A DNA stretch of 60,717 bases from an uncultured Bacteroidia bacterium (lineage in GTDB: Bacteria > Bacteroidota > Bacteroidia > Bacteroidales > UBA932). The stretch spans positions 1-60,717 of the forward strand of contig CACZUR010000025.1 in assembly GCA_902784435.1 (NCBI GenBank), given 5' to 3'. Shown here piece by piece: positions 2,612 through 58,290 of this stretch; position 1 is the stretch's first letter, and the number at the start of each line of letters is the position of its first letter. Made by a program: the position numbers and the translations under genes. The notes under the pieces were generated by a model, which was not told where the DNA came from, did no database searches, and saw only the letters and a program-made list of their open reading frames with translations.

Positions 2612-5206
2612 ATGAGAAGAATCCTCTTCACACTCATATCAGCCATGCTTCTTCTCACCGCATGCGGCGGTGGGAAGAAGTCGCTGGTTATAGGCGTATC
2701 GCAGTGCAGCGACGACATCTGGCGCAGCAAGCTGAACGACGAACTGGCCCTGGCGGGGCGGATCAACGGCGTGGACGTGCGTTTTTCGTCGGCCGACGAC
2801 GACAGCCGCAGACAGATGGCGCAGATCCGGCAGTTCGTAGCCCAGGGGGTGGACCTCCTGGTTATCTCGCCCAATCAGTCGCACACCATTACGCCGGCGG
2901 TGGAAGAGGCCTTCGACGCCGGTATTCCGGTTATCCTGTTCGACCGCAAGATCGATTCTCCCAAATACACGGCCTTCATCGGGGCCGACAACGTAGAGCT
3001 GGGACGCATCATGGGCCGCTACATGGCCGATTTCCTGGACGGGAAAGGCCAGGTGGTGGAAATCCAGGGCCTGGAGGGCTCGTCGCCGGCTTTCGACCGG
3101 AACAGGGGATTCCGGGAAGCATTGGAAGCCTATCCCGGCATTACGCTTGTGGCCTCCCCTTACGGCGGCTGGCTGCAGGAAGGCGGCCGGAAGGCCATGC
3201 AGGAACTGGTGGACCAAGGGGTTCGGCCCGATGCCGTCTTCGGCCAGAACGACCGCATGGCCGTGGGTGCCCGCGAAGCCCTGGGGAACCGCACGGACAT
3301 CGCCTACTTCGGCGTGGATGCCCTCCCGGACGGGGGGCTCCAGGACGTCATTGACGGGGTTCTCACGGCATCGTACCTGTATCCTACCCGCGGAGACCTG
3401 GTGATGGAACTGGCCATGAACATCCTGTCCGGCAGGCCCTATCAGCGGGAAAACCTGCTGGAGAGCGCCCTGGTGGACAGCCGCAATGCCAGCATCCTCA
3501 AGATGCAGGAAGCCGAGGTGGCCAAGCAGCGGGCTGCCGTTGAAGAAGTCAGCGGCCAGCTGGACAGTTTCCTGCTGCAATACAACACCCAGCGCCTGAT
3601 CATGTGGCTGGTCATCGGCTTTTCCATCCTGCTGATCCTGGTGGCCGCCCAGGCCTACTGGAACTACATGAGAACCCGGGAGCTGAAGCAAAAACTGGAA
3701 GAGAGCACGGCCGCCAAACTGCGCTTCTTCACCCAGGTGAGCCACGACCTCCGGACTCCCCTGACCCTGGTGGTCGGCCCGCTGGAGCATGTCCTGGAGG
3801 GGCCGCTGGCCCCGGACCAGCAGCAAACCCTGCTGCTGGCACGCCGCAACGTGACCATCCTCCAACAATTGGTGAACAACATCCTGGATTTCAGGCGGAT
3901 AGAGAGCGGTAACCGACCGCTCAACGTGTCCCGTTTCGACCTTCCCGCTGCCGTGCAGGAATGGATGAGCGGCTTCAGCAGCACCGCCCAGCACCTTGTT
4001 TATGAAGGCCTGCCGGCCCTTACCATCGAGGCCGATATGCGCCTGCTGGAGCGCGTGCTCTTCAACCTTCTGGGGAACGCCATCAAACACACGCAGCCGG
4101 ACGGGCACATTACCGTTTCCGTCCAGCAGGAAGGCGCATCGGCCCTCCTCTCCGTCGCCGATGACGGCGAGGGCATCCCGCCGGAAAAACTGCCGTTCAT
4201 TTTCGAGGAATTCTACAAAGCCTCCGAATCCAGCAACGGCACCGGAATAGGCCTGGCGCTCATCAAAGCCGTGGCCGAGCTGCACAAAGGCAGCGTAAAC
4301 GTGGAAAGCACGCTGGGGAAAGGAACCACCTTCGCCCTGCGTCTGCCGCTGGTGCAAAAAGGTGCCAGCGTAAGCGAAGGCAAAGACGCATCGGCCTATA
4401 CGGAACGCTATGAGCAAACGTATGTCCGGGAGGACACCACCCGGAAAGAAGCGGCCGGACGCGTGACGGAGAGCGACCGCCCCACCATCCTGGTGGTGGA
4501 CGACAACGCAGACCTCCGGCACTTTATCGGCACCCTGCTGGAGGGCGACTACCGCATCCTCACGGCCTGCGACGGCAGGGAGGCGCTGGAGAAAGCCGGC
4601 CGCGAGCTGCCGGACCTGGTGGTCTCCGACGTGATGATGCCCGTCATGGACGGCCTGCAGTTGTGCAAAGCCCTGAAAGAGCAACTCCCCACCAGCCACA
4701 TTCCCGTGATCCTGCTCACCGCCAAATCCCTGGAGGAGCAGCGGGCCCAGGGCTACGACTCCGGGGCCGATGCCTACATTTCCAAGCCCTTCAGCGAAAA
4801 AGTGCTGCTGTCGCGTATCGGCAACCTCCTGAAGAGCCGCGTCCTGCTCAAGGAGCACTATCTGGAAACCGGCGAGAGCGCAGCCCGGCCGCAGGAAAAC
4901 GACTTCCTGTCCCGCTTCCGCGCCAAGGTGCAGGAGCACCTGTCCGACGAGAACCTGAGCGTGGAACAGATTGGCTCCGAACTGGGCCTTTCGCGCGTGC
5001 AGCTGTACAGGAAGGTGAAGGCCCTCACGGGTTACTCCCCCGTGGAACTGGTGCGCATCACCCGCCTGAAAGCGGCGGACCAGATGCTCCGCACCAGCGA
5101 CCGCACGGTGGCCGAGATTGCTTATGCCGTGGGCTTCGGAACCCCGTCTTACTTCTCCAAATGCTACAAGGAACTTTTCGGACGCCAGCCCGGTGAAAGC
5201 CGCTAG
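2612..5206 (+). CDS. Hybrid two-component system with periplasmic sugar-binding sensor
   Basis: 864 residues. Order: lipobox-like signal (LLTACGGG, 1-20); LacI/RbsB-type periplasmic binding domain (about 24-290); one membrane helix (about 328-350); HisKA with phospho-accepting His378 in SHDLRTPL; HATPase with DDGEGIP and GTGIGLALIK; receiver domain with Asp673 in SDVMMP; AraC-type HTH (about 765-860). All steps from ligand sensing to DNA binding are in one chain. This layout matches the B. thetaiotaomicron fructose sensor BT1754 rather than the more common beta-propeller hybrid sensors, and the context agrees. It probably activates this operon on fructose. The lipobox cysteine is odd because the protein also has a transmembrane helix; the N-terminus may simply be a signal anchor. 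Confidence 0.92.
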   Translation: MRRILFTLISAMLLLTACGGGKKSLVIGVSQCSDDIWRSKLNDELALAGRINGVDVRFSSADDDSRRQMAQIRQFVAQGVDLLVISPNQSHTITPAVEEAFDAGIPVILFDRKIDSPKYTAFIGADNVELGRIMGRYMADFLDGKGQVVEIQGLEGSSPAFDRNRGFREALEAYPGITLVASPYGGWLQEGGRKAMQELVDQGVRPDAVFGQNDRMAVGAREALGNRTDIAYFGVDALPDGGLQDVIDGVLTASYLYPTRGDLVMELAMNILSGRPYQRENLLESALVDSRNASILKMQEAEVAKQRAAVEEVSGQLDSFLLQYNTQRLIMWLVIGFSILLILVAAQAYWNYMRTRELKQKLEESTAAKLRFFTQVSHDLRTPLTLVVGPLEHVLEGPLAPDQQQTLLLARRNVTILQQLVNNILDFRRIESGNRPLNVSRFDLPAAVQEWMSGFSSTAQHLVYEGLPALTIEADMRLLERVLFNLLGNAIKHTQPDGHITVSVQQEGASALLSVADDGEGIPPEKLPFIFEEFYKASESSNGTGIGLALIKAVAELHKGSVNVESTLGKGTTFALRLPLVQKGASVSEGKDASAYTERYEQTYVREDTTRKEAAGRVTESDRPTILVVDDNADLRHFIGTLLEGDYRILTACDGREALEKAGRELPDLVVSDVMMPVMDGLQLCKALKEQLPTSHIPVILLTAKSLEEQRAQGYDSGADAYISKPFSEKVLLSRIGNLLKSRVLLKEHYLETGESAARPQENDFLSRFRAKVQEHLSDENLSVEQIGSELGLSRVQLYRKVKALTGYSPVELVRITRLKAADQMLRTSDRTVAEIAYAVGFGTPSYFSKCYKELFGRQPGESR

Positions 5207-8016: not shown

Positions 8017-9162
8017 CTATTTCATCTCAAAATAGAACTTCCGGAGCCAATACTCCAGCAGGGGATCGATGACGGAAGGTTTGTCGTCCTCGTCGAACAG
8101 CAGGACTTCCTTCTTCATGAGGGCATCTTTCACCCGCTTGACGTTGGCCGATGAATTAAGTCCGTAGCGGCGGATTACCTCTGCAGAACTGAAGCGTGTA
8201 ACGCCGTCCAGGACGGCCCGGAGCAGATTCACCTGATGGTTGGTAAGGCTGTTCATGATGGCGATGAACGACGGCTCATGCACGGACAGGAGGCACTTGA
8301 GAGCCTCCATGAGAACGGGTTCCAGGATGTAACCGCGGGTCATGGAGTCGCACAGGAAAGCAAAGTGGTTGATGTACCACAGATGGCCCCGGAACAACCG
8401 GCAGGCCCCCTGCAGCAGTTCCTTTTCCACCGACTTGCCGCCGGTCATGAAACCGCGGTACACGTATTCCACAATTTCCACTTCGTCTACCGGTGACAGC
8501 TTCACACGCTCCACCACCTTGCTGAACAGGCGGCTTCCCCGGAAAATGGCATTCATGGCGTTCACGCCCGAACCCACAAAGATATAGGAGAAGCGACGGA
8601 TGTCCCAGTTGTCCCGCAGTGAAGCATCCAGCGGACGCAGGAGGGCATCCGGATCTTCCAGCTGCCGGAGACAGTGGAATTCGTCCACGATGAGGATCAG
8701 CCGGTCTCCCCTGTCCCGGGCCATCCGGAACGGAAGGGACAGGAGGGCCGACACATCGGCCGCATCCAGGTCCCAGCCCAGCGAAAGCACCGTTCCCTTC
8801 TGCGAGAATGCCACCGGATCGAAGACAAAATGGGTTCCGGGCAGATAACGCTGGATGAGGCGCTCGTAGTCTTCCGGGGCCGAGGCCACCATCTGCAGCA
8901 GCGTAGAGCCCAGTTTTAGCAGGAAATCCTCCGGCGTACGCACGTTCAGGGCCGAAAACTGCCCCACCGTGAAGGCGGTTCCCCGCAGGCGCAACGTATA
9001 CAGCGTCTGCTGGATCAGGGAAGTCTTGCCGGCTTTGGGAGGCTCGTTCAACACAACGTGCTCCCCCTGGAAAAGCAGGTTTCCCAGGAGGGTCACGTCT
9101 TGTCGGCGGCCGATAAAGTTTTTCCCGCTTACATATTGTGCAAAAGGGAAATTGCTATCCAT
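8017..9162 (-). CDS. AAA-type ATPase (archaeal-ATPase-like)
   Basis: 381 residues. The N-terminal segment FIGRRQDVTLLGNLL leads to a P-loop NEPPKAGKTSLIQ; the first Walker A position is not Gly or Ala, as in other Bacteroidota members of this group. Walker B is LILIVDEFHCLRQL. The C-terminal third has a winged-helix-like stretch (SSAEVIRRYGLNSSANVKRVKDAL). Related proteins are often annotated as ATP-binding proteins of unknown role. It starts 1 nt inside the stop of the upstream membrane protein (TAATG), so the two are coupled. Function unknown; partner binding through the membrane protein is only a guess. Confidence 0.75.
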   Translation of the reverse strand: MDSNFPFAQYVSGKNFIGRRQDVTLLGNLLFQGEHVVLNEPPKAGKTSLIQQTLYTLRLRGTAFTVGQFSALNVRTPEDFLLKLGSTLLQMVASAPEDYERLIQRYLPGTHFVFDPVAFSQKGTVLSLGWDLDAADVSALLSLPFRMARDRGDRLILIVDEFHCLRQLEDPDALLRPLDASLRDNWDIRRFSYIFVGSGVNAMNAIFRGSRLFSKVVERVKLSPVDEVEIVEYVYRGFMTGGKSVEKELLQGACRLFRGHLWYINHFAFLCDSMTRGYILEPVLMEALKCLLSVHEPSFIAIMNSLTNHQVNLLRAVLDGVTRFSSAEVIRRYGLNSSANVKRVKDALMKKEVLLFDEDDKPSVIDPLLEYWLRKFYFEMK

Positions 9163-18134: not shown

Positions 18135-19724
18135 TTATTTCAAGCGTTTCAGGGCTTCCTCCACGGTGTTGTCCACCGGCAGGTAGTACTTGTAGAAAGC
18201 GTTTTCTCCCAGTTTGGAATACCGGGCGATGAGCGCCTGCAGCTGCGGAACCAGATAGGATGCGCTCTGGTCCCACTCCGCCTCGGTGCAGGAAATACCG
18301 TCCTGCCGACGGGCATAGGCGGGGAATTCCACCTTCATGTTCAGGCCGGTGAGGAAACGGTCCATGGCCGGATAGGAATCGATCTCCAGGAGCCGGGACT
18401 TGTGCTTGTCAAATACCTCGGAGGCGAAGCGCATCTGGGTAGCTTTCCTGTTGCAGGCCAGATAGAAGGCCGATGCACGCGTGGTGTCCATGGGCACGAA
18501 GACATCCGGCATGATGCCGCCGCCGCCGTACACGATGCGTCCCCGGCGGGTATGATGCACGTCGGAGGTGTCCAGCTTCACGCTGTCGGCGCTGAAGACT
18601 TCCCCGTCGGCATAGCGGTTATAGATGTCGTAGGCATAATCCTTTTCGCTGGCGTACGGTTTCTGGATGCAGCGCCCGCTGGGGGTATAATAGCGCGCCA
18701 CCGTGAGCCGGATGCCGGAATTGTCGGTGAAAAAGAAAGGTTCCTGCACCAGGCCCTTGCCGAAGGAGCGGCGGCCCAGCACCGTGCCCCGGTCGTTGTC
18801 TTGGATGGCGCCGGCGAAAATTTCGCTGGCCGACGCCGAATTCTCGCTGATGAGCACCGTCAGGCCCATGCTCTGGAACAGGCCCCTGCCGTCGGCCTTG
18901 TACACCTCGCGCGGACGGTGGAGACCTTCGATGTAGACAATGGTGTCTCCGGGCGAAAGGAAATCGTTGGACAGCAGCAACGCCTGGTCCATGTAGCCGC
19001 CGGTATTGTCCCGGACGTCGAAAATGAGGTGCGTCATGCCCTGCTCCATGAGCCGGAGCGTGGCCTCGTGGCACTCCTTATAGGTGGTGCGGGAGAATTT
19101 GCCCAGGCGGAGGTAGCCGATGGAATCCCGGACGATGAAAGCGGCGTCTACGCTGTGAACGGGAATCTTTCCGCGCGTGATCTCGAAGGGAATTACCTCC
19201 GTGCCGCGTTTTACCGTGATGGTGACCTTGGTGCCGGAAGGGCCTTTCATGCGCCGGACCATGCTGTCCTGGGGGAATTTAACCCCGGCGATGACTTTGT
19301 CGTCCACCTTCAGGAGACGGTCTCCGATTTGCAGGCCCACTTTTTCCGAGGGGCCGCCGGCAATGACCTCCAGCACGATGGCCGTGTCGTTGGGCACATT
19401 GAACTGAATGCCGATACCGTCGAAGTTGCCGGCGAGTTCCTCTTCCGAGTCACTGAGCTGCTGGGGCGGCAGATACACCGAATGCGGATCCAGGCGGGAC
19501 AGGGCCGCTGCGACAGCCGCATCCGTCATGCCCTCCCGGTTCAGGGTGTCTACATAGTTTTTCTCTACCAGGTCCAGGATGAGATTGAGTTTGGTCCAGT
19601 CCGTATACCTGGTTTTGACCAGGTGACGGGTTTCCCGGTAATGGGCGACACTGAGGGTGCACAGGACACCGATCAGGATGCCCAGGAGTACCTGCACCAG
19701 CTGGATGAGGGTCTGTTTTTTCAT
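18135..19724 (-). CDS. C-terminal processing protease (S41 family)
   Basis: 529 residues from the ATG at 19724, which overlaps the upstream stop (ATGA); the longer frame adds a low-complexity His/Arg/Pro stretch that looks untranslated. An N-terminal membrane anchor (LVQVLLGILIGVLCTL) is followed by a PDZ domain (GIGIQFNVPNDTAIVLEV to GDRLLKVD) and the S41 domain. The catalytic Ser is in ISENSASASEIFAG and the Lys in RRSFGKGLVQE. It acts in the periplasm on protein tails. Confidence 0.9.
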   Translation of the reverse strand: MKKQTLIQLVQVLLGILIGVLCTLSVAHYRETRHLVKTRYTDWTKLNLILDLVEKNYVDTLNREGMTDAAVAAALSRLDPHSVYLPPQQLSDSEEELAGNFDGIGIQFNVPNDTAIVLEVIAGGPSEKVGLQIGDRLLKVDDKVIAGVKFPQDSMVRRMKGPSGTKVTITVKRGTEVIPFEITRGKIPVHSVDAAFIVRDSIGYLRLGKFSRTTYKECHEATLRLMEQGMTHLIFDVRDNTGGYMDQALLLSNDFLSPGDTIVYIEGLHRPREVYKADGRGLFQSMGLTVLISENSASASEIFAGAIQDNDRGTVLGRRSFGKGLVQEPFFFTDNSGIRLTVARYYTPSGRCIQKPYASEKDYAYDIYNRYADGEVFSADSVKLDTSDVHHTRRGRIVYGGGGIMPDVFVPMDTTRASAFYLACNRKATQMRFASEVFDKHKSRLLEIDSYPAMDRFLTGLNMKVEFPAYARRQDGISCTEAEWDQSASYLVPQLQALIARYSKLGENAFYKYYLPVDNTVEEALKRLK

Positions 19725-31400: not shown

Positions 31401-31505
31401 GCAATTCTTCCTGGAATCACTATGCTCCTTTTACCCGCATTGCCATTTAATTTCATTGTATGACTGACCCAAGTGCTTTATGTCCATTGCATGGTGGCCC
31501 CAAGT

Positions 31506-31591
31506 GCGGGTGGTGTCCCAAAAACAGGGACACCACACGCAAAAACGCCCTATTTTGCAGGAGGTCACCCCAAAAACGGGACACCTCCTGC
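31506..31591. repeat. 86-nt twin-hairpin element, copy 1
   Basis: Two long hairpins separated by 16 nt. Hairpin 1: arms 31506-31519 and 31527-31540, 7-nt loop AAAAACA, 13 of 14 pairs. Hairpin 2: arms 31557-31570 and 31578-31591, loop CAAAAAC, 12 of 14 pairs. Each inner end reads (G)TCCC...GGGAC or close to it. The layout 14-7-14-16-14-7-14 is identical to copy 2 at 58028-58113, while the outer arms differ. It lies between the promoter of the lipoprotein operon and the tRNA-Arg terminator. Confidence 0.8.
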
Positions 31592-31624
31592 ACTGTGAGG
31601 CTTGGAGGCCGGAGTCCATAGCCC

Positions 31625-56932: not shown

Positions 56933-56962
56933 GCAATAATCCATGGGGAAAGCAAGATTTTG

Positions 56963-57970
56963 CTAGGCGAGTTCGATGCCCGCCGCATGGCAGGCGCTGC
57001 GCATCTCCTCCGGCCAGATGGCACTCTGGATTTCGCCGATGTGGGCCTTCCGCAGCAGGAACATACACAGGCGGGACTGGCCGATACCACCGCCGATGGT
57101 CTGGGGCAGCTTCCCGTCCAGCAGCAAGCGGTGGAAGTACAGTTCCTCCTTCCACAGCTGGTCGCGCTCTGCAAGCTGACGGTGCAGGGTGGGGGCATCG
57201 ACACGAATGCCCATGCTGGAGATTTCGAAAGCGCTGTCCAGCACCGGATTCCACAGGAGGATGTCGCCGTTCAGGCTCCAGTCATCGTAGTCCGCGGCAC
57301 GGCCGTCGTGCGGCACTCCGTTAGAGAGTTTGCCGCCAATACCCATGATGAAAACGGCCCCATACTCCTTTGTAATGGCGTTTTCACGTTCTTTGGCCGA
57401 CAGCGACGGATATCGGTCCAGGAGCTCCTGCGCGTGGATGAATTGAATCTCGTCCGGGAGGATGGGGGCAATTTGCGGAAACTCCACGAAGAGCTTGTTC
57501 TCCGTTACCTTCACAGCCTCGTAGATGTGGCGGACGGTCTGCTTCAGGTAATCCAGGTTCCGCTGCTGGGGCATCATCACCTTTTCCCAGTCCCACTGGT
57601 CTACGTAAATGGAGTGGATGTTGTCCAGGTCTTCGTCCGGACGCAGGGCATTCATGTCCGTGTAGATGCCGCGGCCGGGAGTCACGCCCAGCTCCGCCAG
57701 TTTCAGGCGCTTCCATTTGGCCAGGGAGTGCACCACTTCCGCCGGAGCGTCTGCGAGCGATTTTACCGGGAACTTCACGGGCCGTTCCACGCCGTTCAAA
57801 TCGTCATTGAGGCCCTGTCCGGAGAGCACCATCATGGGCGCCGTGACGCGCAGCAGCACCAGCTGGGCGCTCAGGTTGGCCTGGAACATGTCTTTCACGG
57901 CCTTGATGGCCTTCTCCGTCTGCTCGGGCCCGCCCAGCAGGTTCCGGTAATTCTTGGGAATAAAAAGCAT
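56963..57970 (-). CDS. asnA: Aspartate-ammonia ligase (asparagine synthetase A)
   Basis: 335 residues from ATG 57970; the codon two positions upstream is TTG. LVLLRVTAPMMVLSGQGLNDDLNG, EVVHSLAKWKR, GRGIYTDMNALRPDE, DQWDWEK and GGGIGQSRLCMFLL are AsnA marks. It makes asparagine from aspartate, ammonia and ATP, a class II synthetase fold. Monocistronic, placed between DUF4295 and ftsY, which are adjacent in many Bacteroidota. Its promoter leaves only 3 nt before the ATG. Confidence 0.95.
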   Translation of the reverse strand: MLFIPKNYRNLLGGPEQTEKAIKAVKDMFQANLSAQLVLLRVTAPMMVLSGQGLNDDLNGVERPVKFPVKSLADAPAEVVHSLAKWKRLKLAELGVTPGRGIYTDMNALRPDEDLDNIHSIYVDQWDWEKVMMPQQRNLDYLKQTVRHIYEAVKVTENKLFVEFPQIAPILPDEIQFIHAQELLDRYPSLSAKERENAITKEYGAVFIMGIGGKLSNGVPHDGRAADYDDWSLNGDILLWNPVLDSAFEISSMGIRVDAPTLHRQLAERDQLWKEELYFHRLLLDGKLPQTIGGGIGQSRLCMFLLRKAHIGEIQSAIWPEEMRSACHAAGIELA

Positions 57971-57973
57971 GGC

Positions 57974-58005
57974 CAAAGGTAGTCATTTCCTGCCGCATTG
58001 CCAAA
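57974..58005 (-). promoter_or_regulatory. Promoter of asnA
   Basis: Minus-strand TACCTTTG at 57974-57981 and TTTG at 58002-58005, 20-nt spacing. Both boxes are present, and the ATG at 57970 falls at about +1. Confidence 0.75.
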
Positions 58006-58027
58006 CAATCCCGCCCTATAAAAAACT

Positions 58028-58113
58028 GCGCCTACTGTCCCATTTTTGGGGACAGTAGGCGCAAAATCGGCCTGAAATGCTCCTATCGTCCCAAAAACCG
58101 GGACATTGGGAGC
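58028..58113. repeat. 86-nt twin-hairpin element, copy 2
   Basis: Hairpin 1: arms 58028-58041 and 58049-58062, perfect 14 bp, loop ATTTTTG. Hairpin 2: arms 58079-58092 and 58100-58113, 12 of 14 pairs with one G-T, loop AAAAACC. The 16-nt spacer AAAATCGGCCTGAAAT shares 10 positions with that of copy 1. On the minus strand hairpin 1 is followed by AGTTTTTTAT, so it may also terminate the rpmB-rpmG-DUF4295 transcript. Confidence 0.8.
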
Positions 58114-58131
58114 ACCAAGGGTGGGAGAAAC

Positions 58132-58290
58132 TTACTTCTTGGCGAAGAATTCCTTCTCCTTGCCCTCTTCCACCAGCTGCTCTACGAATACATAGGCACC
58201 GGTCTTGGGGCTCTTTTCCATGCGGATAACCTTCACCATGTGCTTGGCACCGGCTTTAGCATCGAAGGTTGCAACAGCTTTTTTTGCCAT
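58132..58290 (-). CDS. DUF4295 small protein
   Basis: 52 residues: MAKKAVATFDAKAGAKHMVKV, then MEKSPKTGAYVFVEQLV, ending EFFAKK. This is the short basic DUF4295 family, conserved in Bacteroidota between rpmG and ftsY, probably ribosome-associated by context. It lies 19 nt after rpmG. Confidence 0.88.
   Translation of the reverse strand: MAKKAVATFDAKAGAKHMVKVIRMEKSPKTGAYVFVEQLVEEGKEKEFFAKK

Follow-up and report, generated by a model that had tools for sequence, protein, structure and literature searches.

Twin hairpins in an uncultured Bacteroidia genome as probable REP doublets of a RAYT-type transposase

How can an element keep its fold at two sites of one contig while the arms of its hairpins differ in sequence? 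The question is raised by two twin hairpins, copy 1 (31506–31591) and copy 2 (58028–58113), in a 60,717-nt stretch of DNA from an uncultured Bacteroidia bacterium (contig CACZUR010000025.1; hereafter, the window). On re-measurement, the coordinates and plan given in the earlier note were exact: each copy consists of a 14-nt arm, a 7-nt loop and a 14-nt arm, a 16-nt spacer, and a second hairpin with the same 14-7-14 layout. On the forward strand, copy 1 comprises hairpin 1 (31506–31540), a spacer with the ends AAAAA...TTTT (31541–31556) and hairpin 2 (31557–31591), and is bordered by the outer feet AGT (31503–31505; RGT in the consensus) and ACT (31592–31594), the reverse complement of AGT, both assigned from the alignment and from foot counts over 93 elements. 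Copy 2 comprises a first hairpin with a perfect 14-bp stem (58028–58062), the spacer (58063–58078) and a second hairpin (58079–58113), with the feet ACT (58025–58027) and ACC (58114–58116) placed by alignment. The two hairpins have 13 and 12 Watson-Crick matches of 14 in copy 1, and 14 and 11 in copy 2. The inner TCCC/GGGAC core, described in the earlier note as kept, is broken in hairpin 2 of copy 1, which reads TCACCC, and so is not invariant. Folded as single-stranded DNA with DNA parameters, both strands of both copies reach −26.5 to −28.2 kcal/mol (z −6.8 to −7.8), and for each of the four strands none of 200 shuffles folded as stably. No open reading frame of 100 or more amino acids overlaps either copy.

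The earlier note had proposed searching the genome and its relatives with a covariance model, and further copies were found in both. The bare core GTCCC-N(5–9)-GGGAC is not enriched genome-wide (34 forward matches versus 47 in a reversed control); a count by eye gave eight pairs of core matches spaced 51–52 nt in that list. The model was built from 10 aligned copies of the genome itself, in which 91.4% of the cells are paired versus 79.8% after column shuffling, and 33 cells are changed on both sides versus 11.5. With the best 150 of 920 candidates scored, it gave E values of 1.0e-9 or better for at least 15 twins of the genome. Ten of these had served for training, an eleventh is identical to one of those ten, and four were new (C11:3645, C8:54821, C8:55979 and C24:19583). 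Three matches were weaker (C24:10546, E 3e-4; C22:2683, E 0.004; C41:4, E 0.04). The copies are scattered over many contigs and form no single cassette array. A search of 101 genomes with stricter filters, in which the best 42 or fewer candidates per genome were scored, gave matches at E 0.001 in at least 28 genomes including the source genome, all of one genus (at least 27 of 60 same-genus relatives); among the matches listed at that cut-off, none of 40 genomes of other genera had a twin. From the matches listed, 93 elements were chosen by hand after removal of duplicates, of one unpartnered hairpin and of two matches that overlapped. The doublet is as a rule 86–87 nt long, with a spacer of 16–17 nt in most copies.

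By their arms, the copies in the genome fall into two families, A (8 loci), near GC[GT]CC[TC]A..TGTCCC, and B (7 loci), near GC[GA]GG[TA]GGTGTCCC, and the window carries one copy of each, B at copy 1 and A at copy 2. The compensating arm differences from which the earlier note had raised selection or templated correction of the fold are therefore a comparison of A with B. Compensation stood between families: across all genomes, with 178 of 186 hairpins in register and eight dropped, arms pair with their own partners at 11.62 of 14 positions versus 7.83 when permuted (maximum 8.21 in 500 trials). It did not stand copy by copy. In family A, own arms pair at 12.33 of 14 positions versus 12.05 with 3' arms swapped between copies (p 0.20), and in family B at 11.38 versus 11.48 (p 0.72). 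A first, pooled per-copy compensation test (0 of 2000 permutations) had lumped the two families of the genome together and was misleading for that reason. Pairing is kept between families, and each family largely keeps its own sequence; what looks like covariation between two copies can thus reflect a comparison across two repeat families and not per-copy selection.

These comparisons bear directly on templated correction, in which one arm would serve again and again as the template for the other, as in hairpin-primed repair, and the two arms of every copy would change together. The perfect 14/14 palindrome of 58028–58062 would suit such a process, as would the likeness of the four arms of a twin (means of 10.6 to 12.1 of 14 over 87 elements) and position 3 of family A, a partial exception that is nearly always matched (G:G in 6, T:T in 5 and T:G in 1 of 12 distinct hairpins). 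Own-arm pairing gave p 0.045 under the loosest clustering (18 groups, 130 hairpins), and groups in two relatives, G008 and G015, gave p 0.04 and 0.05. Against this, strict clustering (13 groups, 10 genomes, 107 hairpins) gave 11.51 versus 11.58 permuted (p 0.78), an intermediate clustering (16 groups, 120 hairpins) gave p 0.39, and mismatched stem positions recur and persist inside families. We consider templated correction very unlikely, and the window copies do not bear it out. We also compared the two-hairpin fold with a single long hairpin of the REPIN kind in 87 of the 93 elements, six being out of register. In the long hairpin the outer arms gain 0.47 of 14 (p 0.005) but the inner arms lose 0.95 relative to the hairpin average, so that the two-hairpin fold is slightly favoured in total.

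The earlier note had also suggested looking for the gene of a REP-type transposase (RAYT), of which these twins might be the targets. Pfam identifies three Y1_Tnp genes in the genome. The gene at C24:18600–19565 encodes a Y1/HUH protein of 322 aa and has a B-type twin (19583–19674) 14 nt after its stop codon; the best three of five matches to this protein in the genome are the protein itself, C25:63651, just past the window, and C20:74603. Of 27 RAYT-clade genes in the relatives, 20 have a twin no more than 250 nt 3' or 450 nt 5' of their open frame at an E cut-off of 0.05 (15 at E ≤0.001), and 16 have one on the 3' side. On named contigs a twin adjoins 19 of 21 clade genes, among which L150, L151 and L156 already belong to the first set and some others are nearly the same as one another, and from which 2 of 23 loci (L164 and L165) were left out as fragments; the 23 loci come from Bacteroidales or Bacteroidia records, many of them from ruminants by title. 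With the same model, none of 19 control loci, which we take from reading of translations to be DUF4295/L33, and none of seven more distant Y1 genes has an adjacent twin. These counts support the reading of the twins as RAYT targets. Among 61 same-genus genomes, 22 have both twin and RAYT, 6 the twin only, 7 the RAYT only and 26 neither (Fisher p 9e-6, uncorrected for relatedness), where genes of at least 42% identity, partial ones included, were placed in the clade by hand and twin presence was taken among the matches listed. In the genomes compared here, the clade was met only in one Bacteroidales genus. The B-linked C24 gene is the one clade gene found in the genome among the matches listed, and family A, with 8 of the 15 loci, is without a clade RAYT. 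The Y1 genes on C4, C5, C20 and C25 were considered as partners and rejected, none having an adjacent match to the twin model.

Several other repeats were seen near Y1 genes. At L148:3878–4179 and at L149:2053–2665 and 3878–4177, twins follow one another beside the RAYT gene at intervals of about 104 nt, like tandem BIMEs. A different Y1 gene of the source genome has, about 115 nt on its 5' side, a 23-bp hairpin built on a TGTCCCCC core (L015:5350–5403, G000 C5), which may be the repeat of another type of RAYT. Perfect 14-bp hairpins with GTGAC/GTCAC cores, perhaps another repeat type, occur near a more distant Y1 gene (L087:1158–1193 and ~2647–2680, G056), and repeated units with GTGCCACATGTCCC and GGGGCGTTTTCCGC surround a clade RAYT in L081 (G049 C59); the twin model matches neither of these two.

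Sites that keep structure rather than sequence are also known from integrons, whose attC-like sites behave in this way, and an autonomous single-strand DNA recombination site of such another system would account for the preserved fold. The association found is, however, with Y1/HUH genes, and the copies are spread over many contigs instead of one cassette array, which makes this alternative extremely improbable.

The lineages of the RAYT clade offered a broader view of the arms. In a hand-chosen set of 33 twins, each adjoining a different RAYT locus, 85.3% and 84.0% of the cells of hairpins 1 and 2 are paired versus 56.7% and 57.2% after shuffling, and 142 and 133 changes affect both sides, where 500 shuffles, which ignore relatedness, give on average 48.9 and 44.2 and at most 72 and 64. 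This excess is inflated, since the model used to find the elements itself favours paired ones and the register was picked to maximise pairing. The arms share on average 3.8 of 8 outer bases at 40–50% RAYT identity and 6.0 at 80% or more (4 pairs); overall, RAYT identity and arm similarity are weakly correlated (Spearman 0.17). Together with the arm swaps, the lineage covariation upholds the claim that the structure is preserved across families and species even as the sequence varies.

Reading outward from the stem GC in the 186 outer feet of the 93 elements, T occurs in 161, followed by G in 128 and then A in 124 or G in 41; the consensus GTAG/GTGG foot tag of canonical REPs is absent from this set. 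A few stems themselves start with GTAG (L008:7859 and the second hairpin of L062). Two identical twins of the source genome 5 kb apart (C17:52637 and C17:57693; L005:3138–3230 and 8194–8286, G000 C17) have unrelated flanks and share TTGTTCAGT on the left, longer than the usual foot, and ACC on the right, and two twins in G009 are 97% identical with unrelated flanks. Such pairs indicate that the RGT...ACY feet mark the approximate ends of the element. Other pairs share flanks, wholly or partly in the case of copies in G008, and in one pair of G019; these may be parts of larger repeats.

The neighbourhood of copy 2 suggests a different explanation, a structured RNA or terminator-like regulatory element in transcripts, with selection on the RNA fold of the individual copies maintaining the pairing. 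In the stretch 58028–58134, the last hairpin of copy 2 comes 18 nt after the stop codon of a minus-strand gene that, from its translation, we take to be DUF4295-like, and in several of 18 relatives ordinary terminator-like palindromes of varied sequence were seen by eye at the same place, so a role of the copy 2 twin in ending transcription is possible. Both copies fold stably, albeit as judged with DNA parameters, and for REPs elsewhere roles in mRNA stability and in termination are proposed (PMC3733652). As an account of the whole family, however, a structured RNA is very unlikely. The covariance model matches the window copies strongly on both strands (92 bits, and 74 or 82 bits), near-identical copies occur in unrelated contexts, the twins are tied to one clade of transposase-like genes, and the families lack the clear excess of own-arm pairing expected under per-copy selection. 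In the window, Rfam gathering scores are reached by two tRNAs only, and not by the twins.

On the other side of copy 2, a gene that we presume from its translation to be asnA (56960–58010) is inverted relative to the relatives G005 and G019, with the copy 2 twin at its right breakpoint; by eye, no second twin is present at the left one. G005 and G019 have no twin-model match at the copy 2 site, but given the inversion this is not a clean insertion comparison.

The C24 protein itself resembles the enzymes that handle REPs. It scores 26.0 bits against Pfam Y1_Tnp, above the 23-bit cut-off, and the closest PDB fold to its AlphaFold model (pLDDT 85.8) is 4er8, E. coli TnpA-REP with a REP hairpin (E 1.4e-4; TM 0.55 on the target and 0.31 on the query), the only fold match with E ≤0.001, followed by the IS608 and ISDra2 transposases. 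Among 50 aligned proteins, the histidines H84 and H86 of the NH[VIL]H motif are conserved at 90% or more and Tyr144 is invariant. An HUH motif and a single catalytic tyrosine in a Y1 fold mark RAYT/TnpA-REP proteins, and the C24 protein has both according to its sequence and model, Tyr144 being the putative catalytic residue. The NCBIfam model REP_Tyr_transpos is matched by all three clade proteins and by three of four other Y1 proteins scanned, all below its curated cut-off of 80 bits (33.6 to 40.3 bits in the clade, 33.6 for C24). Placed by sequence alignment, LR stands where WQ is usual in at least 90% of the 50 proteins, and FQ in those of C4 and C5. In RAYTs of GTAG repeats, WQ lies in the region that reads the guide tetranucleotide (PMC6006769), and the predicted replacement by LR agrees with the absent GTAG foot.

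The adjacency to the RAYT clade, the TnpA-REP fold match and the presence of twins at unrelated sites lead us to conclude that the element is very probably a REP doublet (a BIME unit, REPIN-like) multiplied by a RAYT-type HUH/Y1 single-strand DNA transposase. By analogy with its family, the enzyme would bind the folded hairpins on single-stranded DNA, cut near the outer foot, at the RGT before the stem GC, and copy or move the doublet to new sites. If recognition is by shape plus a short foot, the stem sequence would be free to drift as long as pairing holds. A family would take its sequence from whichever of its copies are active, most probably the ones next to the RAYT gene. In the window, the B copy would belong to the C24 RAYT, and the A copy to a second family, the cognate RAYT of which would be absent from this 82.6%-complete assembly or have been lost. 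It is conceivable, though we hold it rather doubtful, that the clade dropped both the GTAG guide and the WQ contacts and turned to near-pure shape recognition of two 14-bp hairpins 51–52 nt apart (about five helical turns), reading a foot of 2–3 nt. In that case, the doublet would be a minimal two-ended single-strand transposon, with stems free to diverge fully between species.

It is not settled by what means RAYTs select their repeats and spread them, and the in vitro studies consulted (PMC8266576) use proteobacterial GTAG-tagged REPs. One genus with dozens of enzyme-repeat pairs of nearly the same geometry, different stems and no consensus GTAG is a natural experiment on recognition by shape versus sequence. 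One close counterpart is the BIME/REPIN of E. coli with its group 2 (subclass 2.2) TnpA-REP: two inverted imperfect palindromes, dispersed and found beside an HUH/Y1 gene. The twins are likewise dispersed inverted doublets, and mismatches recur inside the stems of the 93-element set as they do in E. coli REPs (PMC8266576). Family B, with its cognate RAYT gene flanked by the repeat, has the makeup of a REPtron; for family A no cognate gene was seen. Unlike the E. coli elements, the twins have no consensus GTAG tag and keep a near-fixed geometry with a spacer mostly of 16–17 nt, their RAYT is about 285–322 aa long with LR for WQ, and their copy number is low, about 15 (at least 15) versus hundreds of REPs.

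Two further groups share some of these features. RAYTs of subclass 2.6 (Bertels group 5) are found in Bacteroidetes, where 'atypical secondary structures' without GT[AG]G flank their genes and have copies elsewhere in the genome (PMC6006769). The clade described here shares with them the Bacteroidetes host, the NH[LIV]H motif and flanking structures without GT[AG]G, but it falls outside subclass 2.6 as characterised there (median 179 aa, YIH[QN]NP with WQ, structures described as weaker): its proteins measure about 285–322 aa and mostly carry YVQMNC and FLR, and its hairpins are strong. CGTC-tagged REPs are, like the twins, short palindromes mostly arranged as inverted dimers, and CGTC/TGTC occurs in many arms here. 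Such REPs carry CGTC as an unpaired end tag and have no linked transposase gene (PMC3733652); the twins, unlike them, have CGTC/TGTC in the stem near the loop and often an adjacent RAYT, and are not CGTC REPs.

The earlier note had set this element, as one that keeps structure, apart from REP/BIME repeats, which it held to keep sequence. Structure is indeed kept between families and species, but the contrast was too sharp, published REP families varying likewise: they include subfamilies with alternative complementary stem bases (PMC3733652), pairing is kept across families with fairly constant sequence inside them, and orthologous RAYTs are in some cases flanked by different REP classes (PMC3686654). 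In the open-access literature searched, we found no report of the twin family. Alternative complementary REP stems, differing REP classes at orthologous RAYTs and the subclass 2.6 RAYTs of Bacteroidetes are thus already known, and what is unusual here is that the twin geometry is near-fixed, that a consensus GTAG tag is absent, and that the RAYT clade has LR at the usual WQ position.
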